Assembly: GCA_902760755.1 (NCBI GenBank)
Contig: CACWHK010000024.1
Location: 1-33,477, forward strand
Reading direction: 5' to 3'
Source: an uncultured Lachnospiraceae bacterium
GTDB taxonomy: Bacteria; Bacillota; Clostridia; Lachnospirales; Lachnospiraceae
DNA length: 33,477 nt
A program made the translations under genes and the position numbers. The notes under the pieces are model-generated. The model was not told where the DNA came from. It did no database searches and saw only the letters and a program-made list of their open reading frames with translations. Of the stretch, positions 19,094-32,506 are shown in pieces (positions within the stretch are counted from its first letter, which is position 1; every line of letters starts with the position of its first letter).

Positions 19094-20209
19094 ATGAACA
19101 GAAAATCTCAGTTTCGCGTATCGGCAGTGGTGATCGTTATTGCCGTGATCTTTATCGCGATCATGACCATCAGCCGTGCAGGAAAGCAGAGTGTGGACCT
19201 TTCCGCAGCCGTAACCGTAAAGGGCGGCCTGATCACGGAGGGACAGAGCCAGACCAGCTACCTGCCTGCGCCGGGCAAGAAATGTACCTTTGAAGTGACG
19301 GTAAGCGGTCAGAAGGAGATCACTTCCGCAGCTCAGCTTTACAAGGATGCGGCCATGAAGGAGTCTCTTGCAACTCTGGATCTTACCGGTGGTTCCGCAA
19401 AGACCGAGAGCCTGGAGGTGGACGGTGACGGTGTCTACCTGCTGCTGGCAAGAAGCATCGCTGCAGATGCAGGTGCAGCCCTGGCAGACGGAACCTACAA
19501 GGTGACCTACGCGGTTAAGGTTGTGGGTGAAGGCGGATCGGGAACCCTGATCCTGATGCTGCTCCTGATCGCGGTTGTAACCGTTGCATTTCTCTGGATG
19601 CTTTCCTACGAGACAGGAAAGGAAGCAACCTACAGCAAGAAGAGGATCCGCATGCGGGGCAAGGCCTTCATGCATGCCTTCTTTGTACTGACCATGATGA
19701 TCCTTACCTTTGCACTTCTGGACGGCGTATCGGATCAGTTCCCCTTTACAACGTATCAGGCAGGCTTGATCTCCGTGATCGTTGCGGCAACCGTATTTGT
19801 GATCCTGGCGGACCGTCTGGATGCGTATCTCGGCTTCTCCGAGCGCCGCGGACAGATCATCGCCATGCTCAGTGCCGTTGTACTTGTAAATATGATCGTT
19901 GTGCTGATCCAGGCCTTCTCCAATAAGAGCTCCGGCTCCAAGCTGGGCAACTGGATCGTGAATCTGGTAACAGCCGTAGCATTTTTCGTGATGGTGATCG
20001 CACTGCTCACAAAGAAGAAGACCGCTTCCTCCGGACGGAGAAGAAGCAGTACACGGAGCAGCGCTCCGAAGAGAAAGGCTGCGCCGGTTTCCGATGATGT
20101 GGAGCTTTATGATGCACCGACGAATTACGATCCCTATGATGACAGCGGATATGGCAGCTACAGCGGAGCGGGCAGCATCGAAGAGAACATCGACGACATA
20201 GATTTCTAA
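19094..20209 (+). CDS. Unrecognised multi-pass membrane protein
   Basis: The protein has 371 residues and I recognise no family. A helix at about 9-27 leads to an exported, beta-rich domain (about 30-150, with repeated Thr/Val strands and a conserved-looking DGVYLLLARS). Five or six hydrophobic helices follow (near 155-175, 195-215, 225-245, 260-280 and 300-320). The C-terminus is cytoplasmic: an Arg/Ser-rich basic stretch, then an acidic Tyr/Asp/Ser tail. I start at the ATG at 19094 (GGGAGG seven bases upstream); the in-frame ATG at 19019 lies inside the hairpin leader. It may be cotranscribed with the NlpC/P60-like gene upstream. Confidence 0.75.
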   Translation: MNRKSQFRVSAVVIVIAVIFIAIMTISRAGKQSVDLSAAVTVKGGLITEGQSQTSYLPAPGKKCTFEVTVSGQKEITSAAQLYKDAAMKESLATLDLTGGSAKTESLEVDGDGVYLLLARSIAADAGAALADGTYKVTYAVKVVGEGGSGTLILMLLLIAVVTVAFLWMLSYETGKEATYSKKRIRMRGKAFMHAFFVLTMMILTFALLDGVSDQFPFTTYQAGLISVIVAATVFVILADRLDAYLGFSERRGQIIAMLSAVVLVNMIVVLIQAFSNKSSGSKLGNWIVNLVTAVAFFVMVIALLTKKKTASSGRRRSSTRSSAPKRKAAPVSDDVELYDAPTNYDPYDDSGYGSYSGAGSIEENIDDIDF

Positions 20210-25354: not shown

Positions 25355-28066
25355 ATGCCCCAGGAAGAGATCATCGAAGATACCGGAATTGAATCAATGA
25401 ATAAGAAAAAGGGCTTCGGGTCCCGGCTATGGGCCTTTGCGGAAAGAAACTGGTCCTGGCTTCTGGCGGTGGCGATCGTCTTCATCTTCATGGTGACGGT
25501 TTCCGCCATCATGTCGGTGGCACCCCTCGGAAGGAACTCCTTCTCCTGTATCGACAGTATGCACCAGTACGTGCCCTTCTTCTCGGATTATCAGAGAAAG
25601 GTGAGGGGTCTTGAGAGCCTTTATTACACCTGGAATATCGGTATGGGACAGAACTATCTGTCACTGCTGCTTTACTATATCGCCAGTCCCCTGAACCTGA
25701 TCCTTCTTGTGGTTCCCCGTTCGGGGATCTTCGGCGCATTTACCTTCCTTGTGATCTTCAAGCTCTGCTTTTCGGCAGGGGCTTTCGGTTACTGGCTCTC
25801 CAGAAGAAGGGGAGTGGTCTCAAACTCGCCCCTCATCACGGGCTTCTCCCTGGGGTATGCTCTGAGCAGCTATATGATCGGCTATCACTGGAATGTCATG
25901 TGGCTGGACTGCATCATGATGCTTCCTCTGGCAATCCTGGGACTGGAACGGATCTTCCGGAAGAAAAGCCCGAAGCTTTATGTCCTTTCCCTGTTCTATA
26001 TCCTGTTCTGTAACTACTATATCGCATTTATTATCTGTATCTTCCTGGTGCTCTGGTTTTTTGCGCATAAGCAGGGAAGCTTTAAGGATTTTCTCCGGAA
26101 CGGTCTGGTCTTTGCCGGCTGCTCGCTGCTTTCGGCACTGATGGCGGCCGCGGCATTGCTCACGGCCTTCCTTGGGATCATGCAGACATCCTCCGCGGAG
26201 TCCATGGGACTTCCGAAGGAGAAGCTGTACGGAAGCTTCTTCGCACAGTTAAAGCAGCATTTCTTCCTGACCACACCCATCGACATGCAGAATGATGACA
26301 GCGGTCTCAACGTCTACTGCGGCGTACTGATCGTGCTGCTGTTCTTCCTGTTCCTGCTGTCGGACCGGATCTCCCTTCGGGAGCGGATCCGAAAGGGCCT
26401 TCTTGTGGCATTCCTGATCTACAGCTTCAACTCCACACTTTTTAACTTTATCTGGCACGGCTTCCACAACCAGTACGGAATCCCGAACCGGTTTTCCTTC
26501 GTGTACATCTTTACCCTGCTTACCGTAGGGTACGAGGCCCTTGTCCGGCTGCGTCAGACGGGAGTTTTCCGGATCGCGCTGGCAGGCTCCCTTACCATCA
26601 TATTCTTCTTCCTCTGCTTCTGGTTCGGTGACCCGAAGGGGGCAGTGCCCGGAGGCTGGATCTTTGCGATCACCCTGGCACTGGTGGTGGTTTACATGGT
26701 ATTCCTCTTCCTTCGGAAGTTAAACGGGATCCCGCTCCTGGCGGGAAGTATCGTGCTGGCCTCCATGCTTGCTGCAGAGCTGATCACCAACGGAGCCCTG
26801 GGCTTTGCGAAAAATGACGTGGCGAACGGAGATTTCTACGCGGAATACACGGATGCCATGATCACGGCCAAGCAGAATGTGGACCGCCTGGCGGAACTAA
26901 AGAGCGAAAAGTTCTGGCGGGAGGATATGGTATCCACCCGCATGATCGATGAGGCAACCTACCACGGACTCCGGAGCGTCGGAACATTTTGCTCCACCGT
27001 CAAGGGGAAGCTTGTGGATGTCATGGGAAGACTGGGCTGCTACACAGCAGTGAATGAGTTCCTGTTCTACGGCGGAAATCCGGTGCTGAACATGCTGACG
27101 GGGGTACGCTATATCTACACAAGAGATACCGACTATTCGGGAATCATGACCCGGGAGACACCGGTCTATGAGGATAAGGACCTGAAGGTGTACGAGAATC
27201 CCTATGTCCTGCCCATCGCCTACGGTGTTCCCATGTCCATGGAGAACTGGGAGTCCGCCGCCGGAGACCGGATCGGAGAGGTGAACCGTCTGGCCAGGGA
27301 AATGACGGGCATCGGAAAGGTCTATGAGACCGCAACGATTGAGCGCACGGCGGAAGGAGAAGGGTGCAAGACCTGGGTAACTTCCCCGACCTCCAAGTTG
27401 ATCAACTATTCGAAGGATCAGGACGCCACGGGAAATATCAAGATCACGACAGAACTGACCATCACGGAGGACGGAAGCTACGTCTTTGATACAAGAGTCA
27501 ACCATGTGAAGAGATTACAGATCCACATCAATGATGAGCAGAAGGCCCGGGACAGATTCACATCGCAGATCTTTGATCTCGGGAAGCTGAAGGTGGGAGA
27601 CCGGGTGAAGCTGGTCTTTGAATTTGATTCGGATGCTTCCGAAAGCGGAACCGTCAGGCTGGAATTATGTAGGATAAATGAAGAGAAGCTGCAGCAGATC
27701 TACGACAAGCTGGCGGATGAGGGTATGGAAGTTACCTACGTGAAGGACGGCAAGCTGGACGGCGTTGTTACCATGAAGGAGGACGGCCTGCTCTTTACCA
27801 CCATCCCTTATGATGAAGGATGGACCGTGAAGGTGGACGGAGAGAAGGTTGAAACCATGGCAGTGGGAGAGGCGTTCCTGGCCCTTCCCCTTTCCGCGGG
27901 GCAGCATACCGTTACCTTCCGTTACACGGCACCGGGTTTCCTTCGGGGACTGCTCCTCAGTCTTTGCGGCTGGGTCCTCTATTTCGTGATTTTTCACATA
28001 AGAAGGCAAAAAAAGCGGAAAAAAACCGTGACTATTCCTTTACATAAAGAGGAAAAAGATATATAA
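25355..28066 (+). CDS. YfhO-family multi-pass membrane protein
   Basis: The 903-residue protein is of the YfhO family (GT-C-like polytopic membrane proteins linked in Bacillota to glycosylation of teichoic or lipoteichoic acids). A membrane helix near 33-53 is followed by the conserved loop with SMHQYVPFFSDY. About twelve further hydrophobic segments extend to residue ~485. A large extracytoplasmic beta-rich domain (about 490-860) follows, then one last helix and a Lys/Arg-rich cytoplasmic end. The loop GYHWNVMWLDCIMMLP is typical of the family. The ATG at 25355 has GAAGGAG eight bases upstream. The final codons contain the promoter of the following histidine kinase. Confidence 0.9.
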   Translation: MPQEEIIEDTGIESMNKKKGFGSRLWAFAERNWSWLLAVAIVFIFMVTVSAIMSVAPLGRNSFSCIDSMHQYVPFFSDYQRKVRGLESLYYTWNIGMGQNYLSLLLYYIASPLNLILLVVPRSGIFGAFTFLVIFKLCFSAGAFGYWLSRRRGVVSNSPLITGFSLGYALSSYMIGYHWNVMWLDCIMMLPLAILGLERIFRKKSPKLYVLSLFYILFCNYYIAFIICIFLVLWFFAHKQGSFKDFLRNGLVFAGCSLLSALMAAAALLTAFLGIMQTSSAESMGLPKEKLYGSFFAQLKQHFFLTTPIDMQNDDSGLNVYCGVLIVLLFFLFLLSDRISLRERIRKGLLVAFLIYSFNSTLFNFIWHGFHNQYGIPNRFSFVYIFTLLTVGYEALVRLRQTGVFRIALAGSLTIIFFFLCFWFGDPKGAVPGGWIFAITLALVVVYMVFLFLRKLNGIPLLAGSIVLASMLAAELITNGALGFAKNDVANGDFYAEYTDAMITAKQNVDRLAELKSEKFWREDMVSTRMIDEATYHGLRSVGTFCSTVKGKLVDVMGRLGCYTAVNEFLFYGGNPVLNMLTGVRYIYTRDTDYSGIMTRETPVYEDKDLKVYENPYVLPIAYGVPMSMENWESAAGDRIGEVNRLAREMTGIGKVYETATIERTAEGEGCKTWVTSPTSKLINYSKDQDATGNIKITTELTITEDGSYVFDTRVNHVKRLQIHINDEQKARDRFTSQIFDLGKLKVGDRVKLVFEFDSDASESGTVRLELCRINEEKLQQIYDKLADEGMEVTYVKDGKLDGVVTMKEDGLLFTTIPYDEGWTVKVDGEKVETMAVGEAFLALPLSAGQHTVTFRYTAPGFLRGLLLSLCGWVLYFVIFHIRRQKKRKKTVTIPLHKEEKDI

Positions 28067-28067
28067 T
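28039..28067 (+). promoter_or_regulatory. Near-consensus promoter of the hybrid histidine kinase, inside the end of the YfhO gene
   Basis: TTTACA at 28039-28044 (5/6) and TATAAT at 28062-28067 (6/6) are 17 bases apart. The -10 overlaps the stop codon of the YfhO gene. Transcription would begin near 28074, producing a leader of about 125 bases. Confidence 0.82.
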
Positions 28068-28078
28068 ATTTCCATGTA

Positions 28079-28178
28079 TGTTCTCATGGCGCGAATCTCC
28101 AGGGATCGTGGACCGTCCACGATTTCCGATACGGCGCGGTATCGGGGGAGAGGTTGTCCGCATGGCGGACGGAGAACA
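28079..28178 (+). ncRNA. Candidate structured 5' leader RNA (five nested stems) of the histidine kinase
   Basis: Closing stem P1 is 28079-28085 with 28172-28178 (7 bp). Inside it, P2 is TCTCC 28096-28100 with GGAGA 28147-28151. P2 encloses P3 (28105-28112 with 28116-28123, 8 bp, triloop) and P4 (CCGATAC 28126-28132 with GTATCGG 28139-28145, 6-base loop). P5 is GTCCGC 28156-28161 with GCGGAC 28165-28170. All pairs are Watson-Crick. The element fills the space between the promoter start and the ribosome site. No terminator T run follows, so control of translation is more likely. I do not recognise it as a known riboswitch or ribozyme class. Confidence 0.6.
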
Positions 28179-28199
28179 ATGGATTTAAAGGGGTGCATT

Positions 28200-29951
28200 A
28201 TGGAAAAATTGAAAGAAATGGATGCGAAGACACTGGCGATCGCAGCGGCAGTGGTAATCGGCGTGCTCGGACTGATCGGCGTTCTGGTAGGGAACACGGT
28301 GGTCGGTATTATCATGCTGATCCTTCAGATTGCGGTTGCATTTATCCTGATCAGCCAGGTGTCCGGTGGGGGCTCTGACACGAAGAACGACAAGTATCGG
28401 AAGCTCTTCATGAACCTTCCCATCGGCTTTGCTCAGGCAAAGATCATCCAGGATCCGTCCGGTCAGGTGACCGGTTACCAGATGGTAGACGCAAATGAGA
28501 CCTTCGGCGTTTACTTCAATCTGGATCGTATGGACTATCAGGACCGTATTATCGGCGAGTCCAATATCGAAGTACTTCAGGATATTAACGCATGGTTCCG
28601 TGCGTACAATACCTCCGGCACAAAGCAGGGTGACCTTATGGATGTTGAGATCACCATGGAGAAGCTGGGCAAGGTATTTAATACCGTTATGTACAAGTCC
28701 GAGGCAGATCACATCAACATGGTAGTTATTGATGTGACCGAGCAGAAGGAGACGGAGGCGAAGCTGTCCCATGCCATCGAGGACGCAAATGCCGCATATA
28801 AGACGCAGGCAGAGTTCCTTGCGAACATGAGCCATGAGATCCGTACACCGATCAACGGCATCCTGGGCATGATCCAGCTGACGCTGATGGCAGACGATCT
28901 GCAGGCAGATTACAGAGACAATCTGATCACCGCAAAGAACTGTGCAGATAACCTGCTGCGCCTCATCAACGATATCCTGGATATCAGTAAGCTTGAGGCT
29001 GGCAAGTACAAGATCAAGGAAGAGATCACGGACATCCGCACCTCCATCGAGGAGACGGTTGCGGCACATGCTCCGGCAGCTGAGAATAAGAACATTTCTC
29101 TGGATCTGAACTTCGGAAATAACATTCCGAAGCTGGTTCGTGCGGACGGACAGCGGATCCAGCAGGTACTTAATTGTCTTCTTTCGAATGCCATCAAGTT
29201 CACCTCCGAGGGTGGTGTGCGCGTAAAGGTTGCAGCGATCGATGACACCGCAGAGAAGTTTACACTTCGAATTGCCGTTGCGGATACCGGTATCGGTATC
29301 TCCGAGGCAAACATGAGCAAGCTCTTCATCCGGTTCTCTCAGGTAGACGGATCGGATACAAGAAGATACGGCGGTTCCGGACTCGGCCTGGTTATCTCCA
29401 AGCAGATCACGGAGCTTATGGGTGGTACGATCTCCGTACAGAGTAAGGAAGGGATCGGTTCTACCTTTATTGCCGAGATTCCGCTTCGTATCGTAAAGGC
29501 AGCGGAAGCTGAGGCAAAGAAGATGGAGGAGAAGCAGGATCCTGCAGCTTACTCTATCAGTATGGCAAACGGAAAACACGCGAGAATCCTTGTGGCTGAG
29601 GATGAGCCGGTGAACCAGCAGGTAATCGGTAAGCTCCTCGGTATGGCAGGCTTCTCTTATGATATTGCGGAAAATGGTGAGAAGGCGGTAGAGCTCTTCA
29701 AGAAGAAGCACTACGACGCGGCCCTCTTTGACGTGCAGATGCCCGTCATGGATGGAATAGCCGCGACGCAGGAGATCCGAAAGATCGAGCACTCCGAACG
29801 TCGAAACCGTCTTCCGATCATTGCCGTGACTGCACGGGCCATGTTCGGAGATAAAGAGCGTATCATAGAGAACCAGCTGGATGATTATATCGCGAAGCCA
29901 TATAATCTGAATACGGTAGTGGATACACTGAATAAGTATATCCAAAAGTAG
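28200..29951 (+). CDS. Hybrid sensor histidine kinase with receiver domain
   Basis: The 583-residue membrane protein has two closely spaced helices (about 11-30 and 33-53) with almost no outside loop, so sensing is probably cytoplasmic or within the membrane. A PAS-like domain (about 65-182) is followed by HisKA with H212 in FLANMSHEIRTPING, HATPase_c (ADTGIGI, GGSGLGLVIS) and a C-terminal receiver with D511 in LFDVQMPVMDG. No output domain is present, so the receiver either passes phosphate on or sequesters it. I start at the ATG at 28200 (AAAGGGG six bases upstream). An in-frame ATG at 28179, with GGAG in stem P1, is an alternative; the open frame back to 28074 lies in the leader RNA. Confidence 0.92.
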   Translation: MEKLKEMDAKTLAIAAAVVIGVLGLIGVLVGNTVVGIIMLILQIAVAFILISQVSGGGSDTKNDKYRKLFMNLPIGFAQAKIIQDPSGQVTGYQMVDANETFGVYFNLDRMDYQDRIIGESNIEVLQDINAWFRAYNTSGTKQGDLMDVEITMEKLGKVFNTVMYKSEADHINMVVIDVTEQKETEAKLSHAIEDANAAYKTQAEFLANMSHEIRTPINGILGMIQLTLMADDLQADYRDNLITAKNCADNLLRLINDILDISKLEAGKYKIKEEITDIRTSIEETVAAHAPAAENKNISLDLNFGNNIPKLVRADGQRIQQVLNCLLSNAIKFTSEGGVRVKVAAIDDTAEKFTLRIAVADTGIGISEANMSKLFIRFSQVDGSDTRRYGGSGLGLVISKQITELMGGTISVQSKEGIGSTFIAEIPLRIVKAAEAEAKKMEEKQDPAAYSISMANGKHARILVAEDEPVNQQVIGKLLGMAGFSYDIAENGEKAVELFKKKHYDAALFDVQMPVMDGIAATQEIRKIEHSERRNRLPIIAVTARAMFGDKERIIENQLDDYIAKPYNLNTVVDTLNKYIQK

Positions 29952-30019: not shown

Positions 30020-30050
30020 AAAAGGACGGCATGATTGCTGTCCTTTTCTT
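30020..30050 (+). terminator. Intrinsic terminator after the histidine kinase
   Basis: An 11-bp stem (30020-30030 with 30037-30047, one G-U pair) around a 6-base loop ends in TTTT. It lies about 70 bases past the kinase stop and just before the ribosome site of the next gene. Confidence 0.85.
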
Positions 30051-30070
30051 CGCCAAAAAGGAGTTTTTCT

Positions 30071-32506
30071 ATGAGAAAAAGACGGATGAAGGTGGTGAGT
30101 CTTGCCCTTATTCTGGGACTTACCATGGGGCACCTGCCGGGAACGGGTGCTGCCGCCTACGCAGCAGAGGATACGGGATCCGATGGTGCGGCGCTGGTGC
30201 AGGAGATTTCTGAGGAGGATTCTTCCTCTGATACGGAAACAGAGGGGGGGATAACCCCGGAGGATACTGTGGCAGAGGATGCTGCGCCGGAAGAAACCCA
30301 TACGGAGGAAGAAGGCGAAGCAGATGCTTCTGAAGCAGATGCGTCGGAAGAAACCGGTTCCGGGGAGGAAACCTCTGAGGAGACGGTTTCGGAAGAACCC
30401 TCTTCCGGGGATACTGTAGCCGAGGAGCCTGAAACAGAAGCGTCCGAGGAGCAGGAAGAAGCTGCAACAGAGCAGGAAGGCTCTGCTCTTTCGGGTACCA
30501 TGATGGAGATCCGCTCGGCAGCAGCTGCGGAAGCATCCGTTGCAGCGGTAACGGATGAAACAAAGAACGGCTGGGTTCAGAGCGGTGATAGCTGGTACTA
30601 TTATGTGGACGGCGGGTATGTTACCGGCTGGCAGAAGATCAAGTCCAAGTATTACTTCTTCAACAACGCCGGCGTGATGGTGACCGGCTTCCGGACACTG
30701 GATGGTGCGACCTATTACTTCAGGGAGACCGGCAGTGCCATGGGCGAGATGGCCGTTGGCTGGCTGAAGATCGATGGCTACTGGTACTTCTTTAAGTCCG
30801 GTAAGATGCTGACCGGATGGCAGACCATTTCCGGGGAAACCTATTATTTTAATTCCGGCGGGCGGATGCTTACAAGCCAGTGGATCGGGGATCTCTGGCT
30901 TCGGGATGACGGAACTGCTACGGATGAGGTGTTCTCCAGAGAGTACATGTCCTCCAAGTATTATACACAGCTTCAGGAAACCCTGAAGGAAGTGAAGGAT
31001 GAACCGGATATCATGAAGCGCGTCTTAAAGATCGCGCAGTCCCAGGAGGGATATAACAACTACGCAACCGCAGGCATCGATATCGAGGAAGCCAGAAAGA
31101 ACGGGTACCTTTGGACCGGTGCCGTAAAGCGCTGCAACGGCAGCGGAACCGGGAATTCGGAGTACACCCGCTGGGCACAGCGGTATGTCTGCAGAAGAGA
31201 TGTGGACACCCAGTACAATGATATGCACTGGTGCGCCATCTTCTCCAGCTGGTGTCTGTATCATGCAGGTCTTTACTACGGGCAGGATAAGAAGAGCTGG
31301 TATTATTCCTACTGCGCGGATCCGCGTGTGGAGAGAAGTGCCATTATCACATCCTTTAACTGTGATCAGGCACAGGTTTGGTACACGCCGCTTGCAACTG
31401 AAAAGATCGCAAAGTACGCAGGCTGGAACACGTATGTGCATACGGAGGTCGAGCCCTATGATATCCCCTATCGTCCGGGCGGACTGATCTTCTTCTGCTG
31501 GGACGGAGACGGTGTGTATTTCGACCATGTGGGTATCGTGGTAAGCTATGATGAGGAGCGTCATGTGCTGCGTTACATCAGCGGCAACTGCTCCGGTCAG
31601 GTAAAGACCTATGATGTTTACTATGATAAGAGTGCCGGAAGCGGATACAACTATGATCAGACCATCATGGCCTACGCCGAGTACTATGAGGGACGTGAGG
31701 CATGGAAGGCAGAGGACGGAAGGATCCGTTACTATCGGAACGGCAAGTATCTGACAGGCTGGCAGGAGATTGACGGAAGAACCTATTACTTCCTGGAGGA
31801 TGGCGAGCGCGCTATCGGATTTGTAAAGGTCGGTGACAAATGGTATTACATGAACACGGCAGGTGTTCTTGTGACCGGCTGGAAGGAAGTGGACGGCAAG
31901 CTGTATTACATGGACGAGAATGGCGTCATGGCCACCGGAAAGCAGGAGATCAACGGACGGACGTACTACTTCGCATCCAGCGGCTTCCTGTATAAGGACG
32001 GCTGGTGGGGCGGCTATCAGTATGACGCAAATGCGAATCTGGTCAGCAACACCAAGGCCACCTGGCATAAGGCGAAAATGGGCTGGTGGTACGGTAACTC
32101 CTCCTGGTACGCTAAGGATGAGACCCTGATGATCGACGGAGAGAAGTACTCCTTCGACCGGAGCGGCTACTGGATCGATCCGAGCCGGAAGATTGGCTGG
32201 TCCGAGGAGAACGGAGAATCCGTATACTACGTGGAGCAGGATAAGAAGGCCACGGGCTGGAAGAAGATCGACGGAGACTGGTACTACTTCGCCAAGGACG
32301 GCTACATGCGAAAGAACGGATGGTGGCAGGGCTACCATATCAATGAGAGTGGAATCTGTACCTCCGAGGAAAAGGCTTCCTGGAGGAAGGCAAAGCTTGG
32401 CTGGTGGTTCGGTGATTCCACCGGATGGTACGCTGCAGATAATGTGTACCGCATCAATGATGCACTGTATGAATTCGATAAGAAGGGTTACCTGATCGAA
32501 GACTGA
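30071..32506 (+). CDS. Secreted CHAP-type wall hydrolase flanked by cell-wall-binding repeats
   Basis: The protein has 811 residues. A signal peptide (1-31, AYA-AED) is followed by an acidic Glu/Ser/Thr/Ala stretch (about 32-160). Choline/glucan-binding-like repeats (about 166-285, pattern GW-x-YYF) come next. The central domain resembles CHAP/NlpC amidase: C388 (HWCAIFSSWC), H486 (YFDHVGIVV) and N506 (YISGNCSG), in catalytic order. More binding repeats (about 545-640) lead to two ~60-residue modules (645-702 and 751-809) rich in Trp/Tyr. It probably cleaves peptidoglycan peptides while held to the wall non-covalently. The ATG at 30071 has AAAGGAG seven bases upstream; an earlier TTG at 30035 lies in the terminator. 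Confidence 0.88.
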   Translation: MRKRRMKVVSLALILGLTMGHLPGTGAAAYAAEDTGSDGAALVQEISEEDSSSDTETEGGITPEDTVAEDAAPEETHTEEEGEADASEADASEETGSGEETSEETVSEEPSSGDTVAEEPETEASEEQEEAATEQEGSALSGTMMEIRSAAAAEASVAAVTDETKNGWVQSGDSWYYYVDGGYVTGWQKIKSKYYFFNNAGVMVTGFRTLDGATYYFRETGSAMGEMAVGWLKIDGYWYFFKSGKMLTGWQTISGETYYFNSGGRMLTSQWIGDLWLRDDGTATDEVFSREYMSSKYYTQLQETLKEVKDEPDIMKRVLKIAQSQEGYNNYATAGIDIEEARKNGYLWTGAVKRCNGSGTGNSEYTRWAQRYVCRRDVDTQYNDMHWCAIFSSWCLYHAGLYYGQDKKSWYYSYCADPRVERSAIITSFNCDQAQVWYTPLATEKIAKYAGWNTYVHTEVEPYDIPYRPGGLIFFCWDGDGVYFDHVGIVVSYDEERHVLRYISGNCSGQVKTYDVYYDKSAGSGYNYDQTIMAYAEYYEGREAWKAEDGRIRYYRNGKYLTGWQEIDGRTYYFLEDGERAIGFVKVGDKWYYMNTAGVLVTGWKEVDGKLYYMDENGVMATGKQEINGRTYYFASSGFLYKDGWWGGYQYDANANLVSNTKATWHKAKMGWWYGNSSWYAKDETLMIDGEKYSFDRSGYWIDPSRKIGWSEENGESVYYVEQDKKATGWKKIDGDWYYFAKDGYMRKNGWWQGYHINESGICTSEEKASWRKAKLGWWFGDSTGWYAADNVYRINDALYEFDKKGYLIED

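Follow-up and report, generated by a model that had tools for sequence, protein, structure and literature searches.

A probable lineage-specific structured leader RNA upstream of a hybrid histidine kinase gene in Lachnospiraceae

From the comparison of related genomes, it is very likely that a hybrid histidine kinase gene of an uncultured Lachnospiraceae bacterium is preceded by a genuine, lineage-specific RNA element. The window, that is, the whole stretch of 33,477 nucleotides analysed here, comes from an assembly of 2.58 Mb in 78 contigs that is 88% complete. The leader belongs to the broad kind of structured leader RNAs and is not a new kind. We consider it somewhat probable that it is a clade-specific, cis-acting structured 5′ leader that tunes the translation or the stability of the kinase mRNA. 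Its interest lies in being a covariation-supported RNA element that is unmatched in Rfam 15 and sits on a conserved, single-gene signalling locus of the Lachnospiraceae, where the leader arose or was replaced inside one genus while the kinase gene stayed.

Results

Locus, promoter and predicted start

The features of the locus are collected in Table 1. When the kinase is compared with NCBIfam, 139 kinase-type models match, and all 25 among the matches listed are below their own cut-offs. The upstream neighbour is a YfhO-family gene ending at 28066 (stop codon 28064–28066). The near-consensus promoter proposed by the first-pass annotation lies over this gene end and matches the consensus at 11 of 12 positions, and TTTACA-N17-TATAAT was found again in all ten genomes that carry the leader (see below). 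This promoter places the predicted transcription start at A28074, six bases after TATAAT, giving a kinase leader of 126 nt (28074–28199).

Table 1. Features of the kinase locus, in window coordinates
Feature	Position	Strand	Remarks
Promoter TTTACA-N17-TATAAT	28039..28067	+	overlies the last YfhO codons
Conserved 5′ block ATGTATGTTCTCATGGCG	28074..28091	+	18 nt; first base is the predicted start
P1 closing stem, 5′ strand	28079..28085	+	7 bp with 28172–28178; MFE
Joining strand AUGGCG	28086..28091	+	unpaired in the MFE here; UUGGCG in G019
P2, enclosing hairpins Pa and Pb	28096..28151	+	5 bp, 28096–28100/28147–28151
Hairpin Pa	28104..28124	+	28104–28112/28116–28124; 8 Watson-Crick pairs and one G-U
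Hairpin Pb	28125..28146	+	28125–28132/28139–28146; 7 Watson-Crick pairs and one G-U; hexaloop GGCGCG 28133–28138
Hairpin P3	28155..28171	+	28155–28161/28165–28171; GTCCGC/GCGGAC, 6 Watson-Crick pairs and one G-U
P1 closing stem, 3′ strand GAGAACA	28172..28178	+	MFE, alignment
Shine-Dalgarno AAGGGG of the kinase	28188..28193	+	outside and 3′ of P1; start codon ATG 28200
Hybrid histidine kinase gene	28200..29951	+	583 aa; HisKA, HATPase_c and Response_reg (receiver) domains
Terminator-like hairpin 3′ of the kinase	30020–30051	+	8-pair core GGACGGCA/TGCTGTCC, then TTTTCTTC, 30024–30051

The block starting at this position carries a single substitution across the ten genomes (A13 to T in G019); at position 19, directly after it, nine of them have C or T and G010 has A. 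Only one of the six bases that separate TATAAT from the block is invariant. Since the block nevertheless begins exactly six bases after TATAAT in 10/10 genomes, the pattern points to a constraint acting on the RNA, and the leader RNA probably starts at A28074 or adjoining it.

Fold of the leader

The unconstrained minimum free energy (MFE) fold of 28074–28199 (−48.1 kcal/mol) contains every stem of the five-stem branched structure that had been proposed for this leader, with P1 setting in at nucleotide 6 of the predicted RNA. The further claim, that the fold exceeds chance, stands for the plan shared with relatives, but stability alone is only moderately unusual: the segment 28070–28200 (131 nt) has a z of −2.23 against dinucleotide shuffles, 3 of 200 of which are as stable. 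This z being weak by itself, chance is better excluded by comparison among species, where the unconstrained MFEs of G017 and G036 show the identical five-stem plan; the mean folding z of the ten leaders is only −1.85.

When only the leaders are folded, imposing P1 together with the inner two Pb pairs costs 0.6 kcal/mol in G010, 1.4 kcal/mol in G079 and nothing in the other eight genomes. With 30 nt of coding sequence added, the probability of P1 is 0.01 in G010, 0.09 in G079, 0.27–0.49 in G025, G002 and G011, 0.77 in G017 and at least 0.86 in the other four.

Distribution within the genus

A kinase ortholog is present in 57 of 61 genus genomes (protein search, E ≤ 1e-100), and upstream DNA was compared for 55 of these loci, G026 and G027 being excluded (match without a start or at a contig end). 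Four loci with a misplaced or absent start (L057, L058, L060, L062) were excluded from folding, and the start of L035 was set 18 nt inside the protein. TATAAT-N6-ATGTATGTTCTC lies upstream of the kinase in ten genomes (G000, G017, G019, G036, G025, G079, G002, G010, G011 and G081), which are also the ten best matches to the kinase. In a tree of 30 kinases these ten fall on one side of a branch with a support of 80/73. The other 45 loci lack the motif and, all searched with a covariance model, gave no convincing match (best E 0.38). Thus, with the leader not found in 47 of 57 kinase-bearing genomes, the gene as such can do without it. Wherever the element was found (10/61 genus genomes) it stands upstream of the kinase, and the searches described below revealed neither a second copy nor another gene preceded by it. 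The ten leaders have a GC content of 0.52 and are 102–244 nt long, as against a mean GC of 0.33 and a median length of 74 for 41 other folded leaders, whose −10 sites were picked by script and are partly doubtful.

Three individual leaders deserve mention. On the kinase tree G010 stands beside G002 (support 84/70), yet its leader (L018, 3253–3375) has the large plan with P2, Pa and P3, and is 71% identical to that of G017, 69% to that of G000 and 49% to that of G002; judged from the sequences, either an exchange by recombination or the retention of an ancestral form may account for it. The 244-nt leader of G019 (L013, 3250–3493) contains extra inserted hairpins and a second GGCGCG. The kinase leader of G009 (L040) is unrelated to the ten and forms a long hairpin of its own (z −5.5), as if structured leaders before this kinase had arisen more than once.

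Conservation and covariation

Common to all ten genomes are the GGCGCG hexaloop of Pb and the P1 closing stem; neither the hairpin loop CGGCGCGG nor the 3′ end AGGGGTGCATTATG varies. The interior between the 5′ block and the P1 3′ strand has pairwise identities of 25–87% (45 pairs). P1 and Pb were aligned in nine rows (alignment A1), G019 being excluded for its long insertion. In A1, 98.0% of the cells are paired versus 92.5% in shuffles, and the 7 cells with two-sided changes and the covariation score of 0.259 were each reached by 0 of 500 shuffles, a kind of shuffle that related rows can beat without any structure. If the partners are shifted by 1 to 3 columns, no two-sided change is left. 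Further pair types are not above shuffles (369/500 reach the number). P1 is paired in 9/9 rows with one-sided (wobble) changes only, while three Pb pairs are changed on both sides, a number reached by 57/500 shuffles; in G079, Pb retains only 2/4 pairs.

We have also compared the pairing of arms within and between species, leaving swaps of identical arm pairs out of the count. The arms fully pair in 4/4 own versus 0/12 swapped combinations for Pa, 5/5 versus 3/20 for P2, 4/4 versus 0/6 for P3 and 9/10 versus 18/82 for Pb, although the arms were chosen by hand from the folds, so that own-species pairing is partly by construction. Pa and P3 were counted in four of the five genomes with P2 (G019 carries another hairpin there); in four of these five, Pa has a CCG triloop, and its stem letters vary while pairing is kept. 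Po, the outer stem of the small leaders, swaps well (own 4/4, swapped 6/12, counted in four of the five small leaders because G002 has a 4-bp version only). The better support is the swap contrast together with the independent MFEs of G000, G017 and G036. Homologous leaders with covarying pairs, which the first-pass annotation had proposed to look for, are thus found, with two-sided changes in Pb and with Pa, P2 and P3 arms that fit their own species.

Searches for known families and further copies

The annotation had been unable to assign the leader to a known class, and indeed no Rfam 15 family reaches its gathering threshold there. Across the window Rfam 15 yields only a GA-cis RNA elsewhere, and across the loci of the other nine leader genomes nothing; the best sub-threshold match at the leader is P36, in antisense, with 19.2 versus 36 bits. 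In the literature searched, as far as the available text of the sources goes (PMC11109978, PMC8040213 and PMC6429828 included), there is no description of this leader.

A covariance model built from A1 (R1) was run against 61 genomes of the genus and 392 of the order (among them the window's own), with stricter filters that could miss diverged members in sets of this size. In the genus it recovers the nine leaders used for training and, weakly, G019, whose E is 0.019 when whole genomes are searched and 5.5e-9 when its locus alone is. Six further matches in the genus and four weak ones in the order, all aligned, provided no convincing copy outside the ten leaders: L124, L126, L127, L128, L131, L133 and L134 match mainly at the ribosome-site end or at short ends, and L129, L130 and L132, though similar to the 5′ block, fall inside open coding frames. 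The R1 searches do not reveal the spread over several genes or lineages that is usual, if not strictly required, for riboswitches.

With up to 2 mismatches allowed, the 5′ block occurs in the ten genomes as one exact copy each and as 37 inexact matches, as common as the 34 chance matches obtained with the pattern read backwards. An open reading frame runs through each of the nine inexact matches examined, L112 being the least clear. Among 84,980 named species the exact block pattern gives 20 stretches. In nine of them the block is preceded by TATAAT-N6 and followed by GGCGCG, and the GGGGTGCATTATG start is present; in the model they score the same as the nine leaders from genomes other than the window's, meaning that these are the same genomes and no new species. 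The nine named records that carry this leader are assigned to Lachnospiraceae or Eubacterium; they include Lachnospiraceae bacterium AC2029 and one record from goat omasum, and RUG isolates are rumen genomes. The other 11 stretches are chance matches that lack TATAAT-N6, G[A/G]GAAC and the GGGGTGCATTATG start alike; only one of them reaches the model's list (E 0.44).

Ribosome site and terminators

An in-frame ATG at 28179 with a possible ribosome site had been put forward as an alternative start, but it is private to the window's genome among the ten. The ribosome site of the kinase, lying outside P1, is not directly hidden by the fold. The proposed cis-regulation of translation therefore survives in part: a cis-acting leader is likely from the covariation and the predicted start, but its link to ATG 28179 is unshared and the kinase ribosome site is outside P1. 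RNA thermometers hold the ribosome site in structure, whereas here the predicted pairing of AAGGGG varies among species. A scan for consensus terminators found no terminator-like site inside the leader, making a transcription attenuator unlikely; nor does the leader have the conserved short reading frame of a leader-peptide attenuator.

The terminator-like hairpin after the kinase, the first four T of which could also pair with AAAA at 30020–30023, is absent from the list of the consensus terminator scan. It suggests that the leader probably serves one gene. The downstream neighbour (30071–32503, + strand) codes for a protein of 811 aa that carries choline-binding (cell-wall-binding) repeats.

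Discussion

How might such a leader act? For the mechanism that we favour, the comparison supports an RNA that probably begins at or next to A28074 and a domain, closed by P1, that presents the conserved AUGGCG joining strand and the invariant GGCGCG hexaloop on a variable scaffold. These two conserved pieces are likely a contact site, mutual or with a protein: they may meet through three to four GCG/CGC pairs, or a protein may grip both. The GCG of the joining strand could indeed pair with the CGC in the Pb loop (28089–28091/28135–28137), and both sides of this candidate pseudoknot are invariant in the ten sequences. Either kind of contact would set the stability of the folded 5′ end, which in turn would set the mRNA lifetime and ribosome loading at AAGGGG just 3′ of P1, and thereby the dose of the kinase. 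Perhaps the leader acts on the kinase through a protein bound to the conserved loops. The two short sites, AUGGCG and GGCGCG, are named here as targets for mutation.

A fold that only shields the mRNA from 5′-end-dependent decay, or frees the ribosome site, with no specific partner, would also explain a P1 that sets in at nucleotide 6 and leaves the ribosome site outside, and unrelated hairpins in other leaders of the genus (z −5.5 in G009, −3.9 in G077) suggest that any structure may serve. Such a passive stabiliser has no need, however, of an invariant GGCGCG loop, together with a conserved AUGGCG strand and AUGUAU end, across ten species whose interiors are 25–87% identical, and we regard it as unlikely, though worth keeping in mind. 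Quite unlikely, in our estimate, is a new class of sensing RNA in which the AUGGCG strand and the GGCGCG hexaloop would together bind either a metabolite or a dedicated protein at one site; if true, a kinase dose set by an RNA sensor would make the system a two-tier sensor. A conserved core on a variable scaffold is likewise what a ligand-binding riboswitch on translation initiation might look like, for example one in which the invariant 5′ AUGUAU pairs with GUGCAU just before the start codon, a pairing present in the leader-only MFE of five of ten genomes (G025, G079, G002, G010, G011). With 30 nt of coding sequence included, however, its probability is at most 0.03 in 10/10, and GGGGTGCATTATG also occurs elsewhere without the leader (for example L127 and L131, candidate gene starts), so that pairing need not be the reason for its conservation. 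Metabolite riboswitches usually precede several genes of a pathway, whereas this element was found upstream of a single orthologous gene in a single clade of ten species. We judge such a riboswitch to be very unlikely.

A repressor-bound DNA operator over the start site, with the hairpins incidental, would fit the constant distance between the promoter and the 18-nt block, and the conservation of the promoter flanks as well; the block does not read as a palindrome, however, and the compensatory changes in Pb, Pa and P2 call for pairing, which makes an operator highly improbable. A leader peptide (MYVLMA...) whose leaderless translation would begin with the AUG at +1 and be coupled to the kinase is scarcely credible: the block amounts to exactly six codons from that AUG, and a stop follows after 6 or 7 codons in three species, but overall the reading lengths range from 6 to 625 codons, five of ten are out of the kinase frame, the sole change in the block alters an amino acid, with none synonymous, and a terminator-like site is missing from the leader.

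The favoured reading, a structured leader tuning kinase expression, has relatives among known systems. Comparative genomics of bacterial structured 5′ leaders has, for example, given 508 candidates within 25 bp upstream of genes (PMC8040213, Genome Biol. 2021), and the kinase leader resembles them in being a covarying, structured RNA of putative function that immediately precedes one gene family; the words 'kinase', 'Lachnospir' and 'rumen' do not appear in the main text of that source. Like translational riboswitches, it is a 5′ leader that has conserved loops on a variable scaffold and no terminator, but it was found before one gene in one clade, and its ribosome site is outside the conserved fold.

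Stabilising 5′ stem-loops of the ompA type combine a stable fold close to the 5′ end with a ribosome site left free. The kinase leader is likewise stably folded near its 5′ end with a free ribosome site, but unlike them it has an invariant loop and a conserved joining sequence.

The GA-cis RNA (RF02987) of the same genome (18986–19075, + strand, 62.4 bits) is also a structured RNA upstream of a gene, but differs in sequence and structure, and the kinase leader does not match the GA-cis model. A complementarity of the GGCGCG loop to a stretch of the window's GA-cis was dropped because the GA-cis consensus does not keep that stretch. The gene downstream of GA-cis (19094–20209) encodes a 371-aa protein that has no NCBIfam match at E 0.001 and contains membrane-like segments.
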